Position numbers and translations under genes: made by a program. Below the pieces are notes generated by a model that had not been told where the DNA came from, did not search any database, and was given only the letters and a program-made list of their open reading frames with translations. From Tropicimonas sediminicola (GTDB lineage: Bacteria; Pseudomonadota; Alphaproteobacteria; Rhodobacterales; Rhodobacteraceae): a stretch of DNA of 64,000 bases. Shown one piece after another: positions 9,510-13,903 of this stretch. The stretch's first letter is position 1; each line of letters starts with the position of its first letter. The stretch spans positions 248,001-312,000 of the forward strand of contig NZ_FZOY01000003.1 in assembly GCF_900188335.1 (NCBI RefSeq). The letters run 5' to 3'.

Positions 9510-11669
<2,160 letters not shown>

Positions 11670-11871: not shown

Positions 11872-12672
11872 TCAGCCGTCGATCTGGGCGCCCATCACGG
11901 CCAGCGACTGCTGGTACACGGAGGCCGCGTTCCATTCCTTGAGCACGTTGTAGTTGCGGGTGCCCGGCTGGTACGGCTGTCCGGGGGCCCAGCCCTTCAT
12001 CCGCAGGTAGTTGGCGGTCGAGGCGAGCGCGTCGGACATGTTGTTGAAGTCGATGCGGCCGTCGCCGTTGCCGTCCTGGCCGTAGCGCAGGGCGTTGCCG
12101 GGCAGGAACTGGGTGTGGCCGAGTTCGCCGTGCTTGGCGCCAATGGCGTTGGGGGACATCATGCCCCGATCGATCATCACCAGCGCGCCCATCAGATGCG
12201 GCTGGAAGAACTGTGGGCGGCGGCAGTCGTAGGCGAGGGTCGCGGTGGCGTTGAGCACGTTGGAATCGCCCATGAAGCGGCCGAATCCGGTTTCCATGCC
12301 GTGGATCGCGATGATGACGCCGGAGGGGACGCCATAGGCGCGCTCGAGCGACTGGTAGAAGCCGGGGTTCTGCGCCTTGCGCTTCTTGCCCTGTGAGACG
12401 ATCACGTTGCAGCCGCGCTTCTGGCAGAACTGGTCGTAGCTGAGCTTGAAGCTCTTCTGCCCGCGGTCGGCGTTGATCGTGGCCTGGGAATACTGGGTGT
12501 TGGCAAGGGCCGAGAGGCCGCGCTGGCCGATCCCGGCGCGCGACGCTTCGGCCGCGAATTCCCGCTTCCACGCGTCGAAGCCCGAGGCGGAATTGCCGCA
12601 GCTGGCGGCGTGGCCGGCGGTGGGAAGGGACAGCGCCGCGGCGAGGGCGATGGCGGCGAACTGGCGGAACAT
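11872..12672 (-). CDS. lytic murein transglycosylase, MltB-like (SLT_2 family)
   Basis: Periplasmic enzyme that cleaves glycan strands of peptidoglycan with 1,6-anhydro bond formation. 266 residues, with a signal peptide (about 1-22, cut after GHA). The catalytic Glu is in the [15 protein letters not shown] stretch (Glu127), followed by the family segments [26 protein letters not shown] and [16 protein letters not shown]. It is shorter than E. coli MltB and has no C-terminal wall-binding domain. The start at 12670-12672 has a perfect GGAGGTG ribosome site. Confidence 0.92.
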
Positions 12673-12799
12673 GGGACACCTCCGGATCTGGGTTCGGCGC
12701 ATCATAGACCAGCTTTCCGGTTTGCAAAATGCCGGGATTCGCGGAGGGCGCCTGTGGAAAACGGTGAGAATTTCAGCGGTTCGGGGATGGAAAAGGTCG

Positions 12800-12827
12800 A
12801 AAAAAAAGGCCGAGACAAGTCTCGGCC
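12800..12827 (-). terminator. strong intrinsic terminator of the small RNA
   Basis: On the minus strand a perfect 9-bp stem (GGCCGAGAC with GTCTCGGCC; 12819-12827 and 12808-12816, loop of two T) is followed directly by eight T (12800-12807). This is the best intrinsic terminator in the window. It ends the small RNA candidate and would also stop read-through from the lsrB-like gene. Confidence 0.9.
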
Positions 12828-12872
12828 CAAGTCCAACAGGGAGGTAAAGACGAGCGAAGAACGCCCGTCGAT
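12800..12872 (-). ncRNA. small RNA candidate downstream of lsrB (AbcR-like by position)
   Basis: Predicted 73-nt transcript on the minus strand, starting near 12872. It would fold into a 5' hairpin (GACGGGCG with CGCTCGTC, 12851-12868, one G-U pair), then an unpaired pyrimidine-rich stretch TTTACCTCCCTGTTGGAC, then the terminator hairpin. The ACCTCCCT word is complementary to ribosome binding sites, as in AbcR-family (alpha-r15) RNAs that repress transporter mRNAs with Hfq. In rhizobia abcR genes lie next to the LysR gene lsrB/vtlR, which is the arrangement here. Sequence identity to AbcR is not claimed; the existence call rests on promoter, terminator and structure. Confidence 0.65.
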
Positions 12873-12878
12873 ACTCCG

Positions 12879-12907
12879 GATGTAGAAAAGTGAACGGTCC
12901 GGTTCAA
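12879..12907 (-). promoter_or_regulatory. sigma-70 promoter of the small RNA
   Basis: Minus-strand -35 TTGAAC (12902-12907) and -10 TACATC (12879-12884) are separated by exactly 17 bp, predicting initiation at 12872 or 12873, 45 bp before the terminator stem. The promoter is preceded by two LysR-type palindromes, suggesting activation. Confidence 0.6.
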
Positions 12908-12918
12908 GTCCAAAATTG

Positions 12919-12962
12919 CCGCAAGTGCAAATAGCGGGTTTGCCTGTGTTGCAAGTGCAACG
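12919..12962 (-). promoter_or_regulatory. pair of LysR-type binding sites upstream of the small RNA promoter
   Basis: The word GCAAGTGCAA occurs twice, at 12921-12930 and 12951-12960, exactly 30 bp apart (about three helix turns). The distal copy sits inside a perfect palindrome GTTGCA-AG-TGCAAC (12949-12962). Relative to the predicted start the sites centre near -83 and -53, a layout typical of LysR activators (recognition site plus activation site). The obvious candidate regulator is the lsrB-like gene whose stop is 30 bp away. Binding is inference. Confidence 0.5.
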
Positions 12963-12991: not shown

Positions 12992-13903
12992 TCAGCCCTC
13001 GTCGGGCTGGCTGGCCTCGAGAATCCGGCGGTGCGCCTGGATCTCCTCGACCACGAAATCGCGGAAGGCGGCGATCCGCTTGGACTGCCTGAGTTCCTCC
13101 GGGTAGGCGAGGAAAACCGGCACTTCGGCGCTCTCCACCTCGGGCAGGACGCGCACGAGATAGGGCTCGGAAGCCACGATGTAGTCGGGCAGGACGCCGA
13201 TGCCGAGGTTGTTCTTCACGCACTGGAGCACGCCGAAATAGTTGTTGACGTTCAGCCGCGAGGTGATGTCGTGGCCGATCAGCCATTGCACCATCGAGGC
13301 GCCGGCGGAGACCTGGGTAGAGGAGGTCCCCTGGCAGATCAGCCGATGGTCGCGCATCTCGTCCGCGGTTTGCGGCATGCCGAACTGCTCGATGTAGTCC
13401 CGCGATGCGTAGAGCCGCATCCGGACCGTCATCAGGCGCTTGCGGATCAGGTCGGCCTGCGAGGGCTCCTTCATCCGGATCGCGACATCGGCCTCGCGCA
13501 TCGGCAGGTCGAGCACCCGCTCTTCCAGCATCAGGTCGATGTTGAGATCGGGGTACTTGCCGTAGAGCTTGGCCAGGCGCGGCGCCAGCCAGAGGCAGCC
13601 GAACCCGTGGGCGGTGGTCACGCGCAACTCGCCGAAGACCTCCTCCTCGCTGTCGCGAATCCGGGCCGAGGCGGCCTCCAGCCGCTTGCTCATGCCGCGC
13701 GTCGCCTCGTACAGCAACTCGCCCTGCTCGGTGAGGATCAGGCCGCGGGCATGGCGGTGGAACAGGGTGGTGTTGAGGCTCTCCTCGAGCGCGCGAATCT
13801 GCCGCGAGACGGCCGACTGGCTCAGGTGGAGGGAATCTCCCGCGTGGGTGAGACTTCCGGCGGAAGCGACGGCGTGAAAGATCCTGAGCTTGTCCCAATC
13901 CAT
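12992..13903 (-). CDS. lsrB: LysR family regulator, LsrB/VtlR-like
   Basis: A 303-residue LysR regulator. The N-terminus MDWDKLRIFHAV...GSLTHAGDSLHLSQSAVSRQ and the segment LFHRHARGLILTEQGELLY match my memory of LsrB of Sinorhizobium and VtlR of Brucella, which control stress and virulence functions and activate the adjacent abcR small RNA. The effector domain has RVTTAHGFG, READVAIRMK and GIGVLPDY blocks. Start 13901-13903 puts the helix-turn-helix at residues about 16-40; an upstream in-frame ATG would add 27 non-homologous residues. A small RNA candidate follows on the same strand. Confidence 0.88.
   Translation of the reverse strand: MDWDKLRIFHAVASAGSLTHAGDSLHLSQSAVSRQIRALEESLNTTLFHRHARGLILTEQGELLYEATRGMSKRLEAASARIRDSEEEVFGELRVTTAHGFGCLWLAPRLAKLYGKYPDLNIDLMLEERVLDLPMREADVAIRMKEPSQADLIRKRLMTVRMRLYASRDYIEQFGMPQTADEMRDHRLICQGTSSTQVSAGASMVQWLIGHDITSRLNVNNYFGVLQCVKNNLGIGVLPDYIVASEPYLVRVLPEVESAEVPVFLAYPEELRQSKRIAAFRDFVVEEIQAHRRILEASQPDEG

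Follow-up and report, generated by a model that had tools for sequence, protein, structure and literature searches.

Two small RNA circuits of the Alphaproteobacteria are the closest described systems to the locus treated here. In rhizobia and Brucella the LysR-type regulator LsrB/VtlR is described as binding and activating abcR1, and AbcR is given, in the parts of PMC3712013 and PMC8844928 that deal with it, as an RNA of 114-121 nt with three hairpins and two anti-Shine-Dalgarno (aSD) motifs. The control is described as split in S. meliloti, with an LsrB input on AbcR1 and an RpoH1 input on AbcR2. The other circuit is that of the photosynthetic bacterium R. sphaeroides, where the singlet-oxygen small RNA SorY, formerly RSs1543 (PMC5036791; RSP_1543 is entered as a hypothetical protein in PMC4618611), has its own promoter, is RpoHI/RpoHII-dependent and co-precipitates with Hfq, according to the passages concerned in PMC5036791 and PMC8307010. 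It acts on takP, and SorX arises by processing of an ompR-type mRNA at its 3' end, as stated in the corresponding passages of PMC6238624.

We analysed a window of 64 kb from Tropicimonas sediminicola, by which we mean the whole stretch of DNA under study, and propose that it contains the lsrB-sorY locus of a Rhodobacteraceae genome, where LsrB would turn on a SorY-type RNA that lowers target mRNAs. We put the probability of this reading at about 0.78. The parts of the locus are as follows.

12992..13903 (stop codon included), minus strand: gene for an lsrB-type LysR regulator of 303 aa, with Pfam HTH_1 and LysR_substrate, reciprocal best match with S. meliloti LsrB
12948..12961, minus strand: palindrome GTTGCA-CT-TGCAAC from a pattern scan, overlapping the distal dyad
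12940..12954, minus strand: putative distal operator dyad TTGC-AACACAG-GCAA (T-N11-A), centre at about -74, in the position of ATGC-N7-GCAT of relatives
12931..12943, minus strand: box GCAA-ACC-CG-CTA-T, counterpart of the VtlR/LsrB box GCAT-N3-TG-N3-T as printed in passages of PMC7486931 and PMC8844928, two fixed positions differing
12916..12930, minus strand: proximal dyad TTGC-ACTTGCG-GCAA from a dyad scan, centre at about -50
12902..12907, minus strand: -35 element TTGAAC (CTTGAAC), CTTGA being the usual form in relatives
12879..12884, minus strand: -10 element TACATC at 17-bp spacing, from the sequence and relatives
12800..12873, minus strand: SorY-type small RNA of about 74 nt (SorY match 56.5 bits, fold z -5.60, start by homology with the mapped SorY start)
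12849..12869, minus strand: 5' hairpin with an 8-bp stem, from the fold and covariation in same-genus sequences
12829..12845, minus strand: anti-Shine-Dalgarno core ACCTCCCTGTTGGACTT, near-invariant as ACCTCCCTGTTGGACT in relatives
12800..12828, minus strand: terminator with a 9-bp stem, a 4-nt loop and a T run, from the fold
11872..12705, minus strand: gene for an MltB-like lytic transglycosylase that separates the RNA from purL, from context
9510..11669, minus strand: purL, which directly follows SorY in R. sphaeroides, from context

The RNA gene starts 119 nt past the LysR stop codon on the same strand (minus), and a divergent acyltransferase gene lies upstream of the LysR gene. The parts named in the first-pass annotation were recovered. 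The repeat TTGCACTTGC stands twice on the minus strand, at 12960-12951 and 12930-12921 and thus 30 bp apart, and the palindrome GTTGCA-CT-TGCAAC has one place only in the window at up to 2 mismatches (0.17 expected). The promoter TTGAAC/TACATC with its 17-bp spacing is present and, as the RNA's own promoter, conserved in relatives; it was absent from the output of a simple sigma-70 scan. The hairpin, the free core stretch and the 9-bp terminator stem with eight T are likewise seen in sequence and fold, the 74-nt strand folding at -30.9 kcal/mol (z -5.60; 0/200 shuffles as good) into the 8-bp 5' hairpin and the 9-bp terminator stem, followed by 8 T, and the core ACCTCCCTGTTGGAC occurs a single time in the 64 kb at up to 2 mismatches (0.10 expected). 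Terminator-like sites as such were not rarer than chance in this 3-kb region (1 vs 1.8 in shuffles). The stretch CTCCCT is open in the centroid fold of the window RNA; at least five of its six positions are unpaired in only 5/91 MFE folds of family RNAs, because a weak 2-bp helix forms. A transcript of 73 nt from 12872 had been suggested, and a small RNA does lie there, but homology with the mapped SorY start places its beginning better at 12873, for a length of about 74 nt.

No Rfam family reached its gathering score in the window. The best permissive match, at 12869-12800, was SorY (RF02651) with 56.5 bits and E 1.3e-10, below the gathering score of 111, and the second was SorX (RF02784) with 39.1 bits, below 46.6. 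A SorY-type match was present somewhere in 370/394 family genomes, and the RF02651 cut-off must be very narrow, since just one of the 394 passes it. This sole genome (G070) encodes a TakP identical over 365 residues to PDB 2hzk, which we take to be TakP and whose own entry says SmoM. Its match starts at 1632645; the SorY start of R. sphaeroides printed in the relevant part of PMC6238624 is 1,632,642. As the SorY start fits and TakP equals 2hzk, we infer that G070 is R. sphaeroides 2.4.1 or its equal. SorY there lies directly after a LysR gene 76% identical to that of the window, with purL next, and among the 30 best SorY loci the LysR ortholog was inside the fetched stretch in 28, in 2 of these only partly. 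The genomic place is thus common to both species, with the lsrB ortholog before the RNA and purL after it, and one inserted gene before purL here. That gene, the MltB-like one at 11872-12705, is without counterpart at the R. sphaeroides SorY locus. Judged by place, core and layout, the window RNA is a SorY ortholog, yet not a member of RF02651. The first-pass annotation had called it single-copy, which holds at the locus but not in the genome, where a sibling SorX on contig C10 passes its cut-off with 63.4 bits (L002, G000:C10:333967-334034) and follows a reading frame that by eye ends like a response regulator; the genome has two RNAs with the same core, one of SorY type and SorX.

The regulator was taken from the start as LsrB/VtlR-like, and reciprocal best matching with S. 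meliloti LsrB bears this out as orthology. Among proteins of solved structure the closest to it is 9hh1 (E 2.6e-73; next 2.3e-29), which has cysteines at 144, 236, 244 and 273, and we take this chain for A. tumefaciens LsrB because these coincide with the four named for that protein in the passage concerned of PMC11975290. A record of S. meliloti in the plasmid collection shows trxB, LysR, a 650-bp gap and arsR, which is the printed lsrB-abcR layout, and the R. leguminosarum copy in the same collection is annotated VtlR. The order trxB-lsrB-abcR-arsR is carried by a 3.7-Mb S. meliloti record labelled plasmid pSymB (L267, CP090106.1), and the label may be wrong; in S. meliloti this gene group is presumably chromosomal. 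S. meliloti LsrB is 43% identical to the window LysR. Searched back in the genome of the window it finds the window gene first (8.5e-76; next 2.8e-37), and in R. sphaeroides it finds the SorY neighbour first (2.0e-74; next 2.5e-34), so that in both genomes the best match leads the next LysR by 39-40 orders of magnitude. By these comparisons the window LysR gene is the LsrB/VtlR ortholog. LsrB has been called unique to Rhizobiales in a passage of PMC11975290; the orthology, together with LsrB matches at E 1e-60 or better in 85/144 genomes of the class, speaks against this. The TrxB end motif next to lsrB was found in 0/101 family loci vs 56/69 outside the family, the latter set being 68 of 83 class places (the 15 weakest left out) plus L025. 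The redox cysteines C144 and C273 are replaced in the window LysR by V140 and A266, and Cys was at neither place in the 101 family proteins and at the first place in 6/69 of the others. Because both the trxB neighbour and the two cysteines are missing in the family, the sensed signal may differ.

Of the 101 family loci, 18 come from genomes to which that of the window belongs, 80 are the top-scoring among 576 named loci and 3 were added; the named ones, being the top of that ranking, lean to close relatives, and the window locus (L003) is counted among the 101. Three (L006, L066, L016) duplicate L061, L012 and L124; the operator counts omit them and hence refer to 98 distinct loci. The record of L066 is titled Enemella evansiae and holds a Rhodobacteraceae lsrB-sorY locus identical to that of G010 where compared, so the title looks wrong. 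The closest named relative among the best 80 of 576 is Aliiruegeria haliotis, with a LysR 92% identical. The RNA core lies at most 900 nt behind lsrB in 97/101 family loci (94/98 distinct), is absent there from L086, L106, L108 and L122, and 93 of the 97 RNA-bearing loci have ACCTCCCTGTTGGACT without change. The first-pass annotation had named loss of the promoter and terminator in related genomes as a sign against its reading, and both were found to be kept: 91/91 family RNAs form a terminator stem of 6 bp or more. A 5' hairpin of at least 7 bp is formed in 88/91, vs 234/455 shuffled versions. RNAalifold gave no pair on the 91-RNA family alignment, in which the variable 5' hairpin is scrambled, and the structure was tested on 8 same-genus sequences. 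There every cell of the 5' hairpin is paired, 4 of its 8 pairs show two-sided changes, and pairing over the whole structure reaches 98.5% of cells vs 38.5-54.8% when slid; one of five structure measures, the number of further pair types, was not above shuffles (289/500) in these 8 sequences. The model built from the 91-RNA alignment, R1, holds sequence only.

When the relatives are aligned on the -35 element, a common pattern ATGC-N7-GCAT-N3-NG-N3-T emerges, whose right half-site begins 36 or 37 nt before -35 in 84/93 loci; 77 of these 84 have a gap of exactly 7. In sequence terms ATGC-N7-GCAT fits the T-N11-A form of LysR sites. In the 350 nt that follow lsrB, the dyad with gap 7 is found in 68/98 family loci and 38/69 outside, vs at most 13 and 2 for any other gap from 3 to 12, and 0.42 and 0.24 in base shuffles. 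Its right half is the VtlR/LsrB box GCAT-N3-TG-N3-T as printed in passages of PMC7486931 and PMC8844928, with the T before G not kept: the strict box fits 4/93 promoters of the family, and 26/93 fit if A, C or T is allowed at the position before G. In S. meliloti and R. leguminosarum the abcR1 promoter has the same dyad too, and the S. meliloti promoter is bound by LsrB according to the part of PMC8844928 concerned. The box lies at about -71 to -59 in the window and is described at -61 to -49 in S. meliloti. Both half-sites of the window dyad are changed together relative to ATGC/GCAT, to TTGC-N7-GCAA, as happens in 3/84 loci, and a second TTGC-N7-GCAA dyad lies 24 bp nearer the promoter. This form occurs 3 times in the 64-kb window, two of them at the locus (0.70 expected; 4/100 shuffles reach 3); a second dyad at 22-25 bp is found in 21/72 loci and is hence not the rule. 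The CTTGA form of -35 is common in relatives, and the window promoter is of similar form. A motif GCATRGC upstream of lsrB, present in 50/69 outside loci, was considered as a second operator and rejected, since it lies in a TrxB-like frame in 3 of 6 loci inspected and the TrxB end motif stands in 56/69; the rejection is based on those 6 loci and the end motif count. A predicted LsrB-type operator is conserved ahead of the RNA promoter, which supports the earlier claim that the RNA has its own LysR-type operator; the two repeats then pointed out overlap the conserved dyad only partly.

In 15 family genomes a stricter form of the dyad pattern had 64 matches, counted by strand, vs 4 for the reversed control, and loci were available for 30 of the 64. 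Six of the 15 genomes (G009, G013, G016, G017, G070, G074) have it some 100-140 nt ahead of a gene that encodes a DUF1127-type protein of 70-74 aa, at L279 (G070:C4:692796), L277, L281, L293, L295 and L301; five of the DUF1127 matches are above the Pfam cut-off and one is below (19.9 vs 23.3 bits). The main VtlR targets in B. melitensis are, in the passage concerned of PMC12595884, AbcR2 and three DUF1127 proteins, and the VtlR motif given there, reverse-complemented, reads TGCATGGCTGCATTG; the R. sphaeroides DUF1127 site contains GCATGGCAGCATTG. The same two target classes with the same operator in two orders suggest a shared circuit, and we regard this as the best argument for it beyond gene order. 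In 4 of the 6 DUF1127 dyad loci the opposite flank holds a gene that by eye encodes a Mrp/ApbC-like ATPase. No DUF1127 gene was among the stricter-dyad matches of the window's own genome, where the two with loci are near DUF6280 and sulfate-permease-like genes. One of these sites (L289, G000:C9:78276) is between the DUF6280 gene and a gene that by eye is elongation factor P-like, and a near-perfect dyad precedes a sulfate-permease-like gene (by eye) in both the own genome (L304, G000:C9:253605) and a same-genus one (L290, G004:C69:5875).

In R. sphaeroides the pairing of the SorY core with the takP ribosome site (-24.2 kcal/mol) was the best of the 9 TRAP genes found, with 1/1000 shuffled seeds as good, and the seed-complement pattern before ATG had takP as its single site in the genome, against 0 sites of the reversed control. 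The pattern in the T. sediminicola genome gave 2 sites vs 1 for the reversed control, no better than chance; by eye the two precede adhesin-like and metallo-hydrolase-like genes. Target prediction in the same genome did not separate 21 TRAP genes from 46 control genes (p = 0.079), where the 21 are those of 30 that had loci and were scored, the controls were chosen by a home-made GC3 rule and start codons by Shine-Dalgarno score.

We hypothesize that the LsrB-family LysR protein binds the T-N11-A dyads centred near -74 and, here, -50, and that bound LsrB, by analogy with S. meliloti, would activate the next gene from these upstream sites. The SorY-type RNA would be transcribed from its CTTGAA-type promoter, which is RpoH-dependent in R. 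sphaeroides, and its exposed core ACCUCCCUGUUGGACUU could then pair with the ribosome-binding sites of a set of mRNAs and lower their expression. Binding and activation of the window promoter by LsrB, as well as the target set in T. sediminicola, are predictions of this scheme. A sigma factor of RpoH type is likely, because SorY is RpoHI/RpoHII-dependent in the passages in print and CTTGA is kept, and the LsrB and RpoH inputs may both meet on one promoter here.

The strongest competing explanation is that SorY is driven by RpoH sigma factors alone, with the dyad serving another LysR-type regulator and lsrB and sorY being mere stable neighbours. The RpoHI/RpoHII dependence described in the passages of PMC5036791 and PMC8307010 may suffice for SorY, for which we found no literature report of a LysR regulator. 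Against it stand the constant spacing of the dyad and its fixed distance to -35 in 84/93 loci, its presence at the abcR1 promoter that LsrB binds and its recurrence ahead of DUF1127-type genes, and we consider this explanation rather improbable.

Far less probable still is that the RNA is a true AbcR of the ar15 family in shortened form, close to what the first-pass annotation had proposed in calling it AbcR-like. The covariance search it recommended gave no match: ar15 (RF02345, cut-off 40 bits) is not among the 6 Rfam matches up to E 10 in the window, the locus included, nor did it match in the own genome up to the same E, vs 97-127 bits in the named Rhizobiaceae records of the plasmid collection that served as positive control, with two copies behind lsrB in each of the S. 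meliloti and R. leguminosarum records. Scans of 144 and 385 class genomes with ar15 had 0 and 0 matches and are uninformative, as 0/14 control genomes matched too. The family model R1 in turn found nothing convincing in the ar15 loci (best 6.9 bits). The RNAs do have the same place behind lsrB, the same operator and an anti-Shine-Dalgarno core in common. By comparison of the sequences, homology of SorY and ar15 is without support, and AbcR is a system of common place and operator with no demonstrable sequence likeness. The element could also be a merely conserved 3' end and terminator of the lsrB mRNA, 119 nt behind its stop codon on the same strand as it is, but SorY has its own mapped start (PMC6238624, in the part concerned) and the conserved promoter and operator, the covarying 5' hairpin and the near-invariant core make this the least credible of all. 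We thus retain the lsrB-sorY reading. The locus is conserved in its anatomy, both partners are orthologs of described ones and the operator is that of the S. meliloti lsrB-abcR1 promoter; the first-pass idea of an LsrB-AbcR circuit in a roseobacter-type genome is well supported with SorY in the place of AbcR, not with AbcR itself, and with a control of SorY by LsrB, and a silencing of transporter mRNAs in T. sediminicola, that we infer.

Outside the family, R1 gave 41 matches up to E 0.1 in 38 of the 69 lsrB loci, and all 41 lie at most 1000 nt behind lsrB on its strand, a zone that makes up 13% of the sequence searched. An RNA form CTCCCAGACGT...CCTCCCTG plus terminator stands behind lsrB in 33/69 of these loci (L023, L025, L173-L236). 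No RNA behind lsrB was above an Rfam cut-off in the 20 of the 69 outside loci scanned, CTCCC was missing within 800 nt in 9/69, and in Azospirillum brasilense (L270, 50% identity) the 282 nt that follow the LysR gene contain no CTCCC motif and no dyad. Tandem RNA copies behind lsrB were noticed in L018 (G009; two), L180 (G541; three) and L177 (G434), and recall the abcR1/abcR2 tandem. SorY and the widespread CTCCCAGACGT...CCTCCCTG RNA look related in sequence. We lean, with some reserve, towards the idea that SorY, AbcR1 and this unnamed widespread RNA are heirs of one ancestral alphaproteobacterial anti-Shine-Dalgarno RNA activated by LsrB. LsrB would then be class-wide, with one operator, GCYATGC-N7-GCATRGC, and a core regulon of the adjacent sRNA and DUF1127 small proteins, and the RNA would have been rebuilt lineage by lineage with regulator, place and operator constant.

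Our literature search found nothing linking SorY with AbcR1, nor with AbcR as a whole word, the original descriptions of SorY and SorX being outside its reach, and LsrB, Rhodobacterales and sRNA occurred together only in PMC11975290. SorY is an RNA already known; what is new, as far as searched, is its apparent membership in an LsrB circuit that runs parallel to LsrB-AbcR and has the operator and a second class of targets in common with it. Comparison with related bacteria suggests that regulator and RNA form an ancient common circuit, of which separate accounts had been given under different names. LsrB becomes a candidate transcription factor for SorY. If the reading is true, the stress metabolism of Rhodobacter (SorY) and the nutrient uptake of rhizobia and Brucella (AbcR) are one circuit under one regulator, the statement in PMC11975290 that LsrB is unique to Rhizobiales falls, and the printed half-box becomes a full palindromic operator for regulon searches.

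Compared with LsrB/VtlR-AbcR1 (ar15, RF02345) of Rhizobiaceae and Brucella, the locus has the same LsrB ortholog directly upstream, an LsrB-type dyad and an anti-Shine-Dalgarno RNA, but that RNA is of 74 nt vs 114-121 nt, with two stems and one core vs two aSD motifs, and gives no ar15 match, and the locus has one RNA copy vs two, no trxB before lsrB and no redox cysteines in the regulator. With SorX (RF02784) the window RNA has the core in common, whereas SorX is derived from a 3' UTR and the window RNA has a promoter-like sequence of its own. It is shorter than SorY (RF02651) of R. sphaeroides, with another 5' hairpin and one extra gene before purL, but it has the same place behind the lsrB ortholog, purL downstream, the identical core ACCTCCCTGTTGGACTTG, two stems and the same terminator layout.
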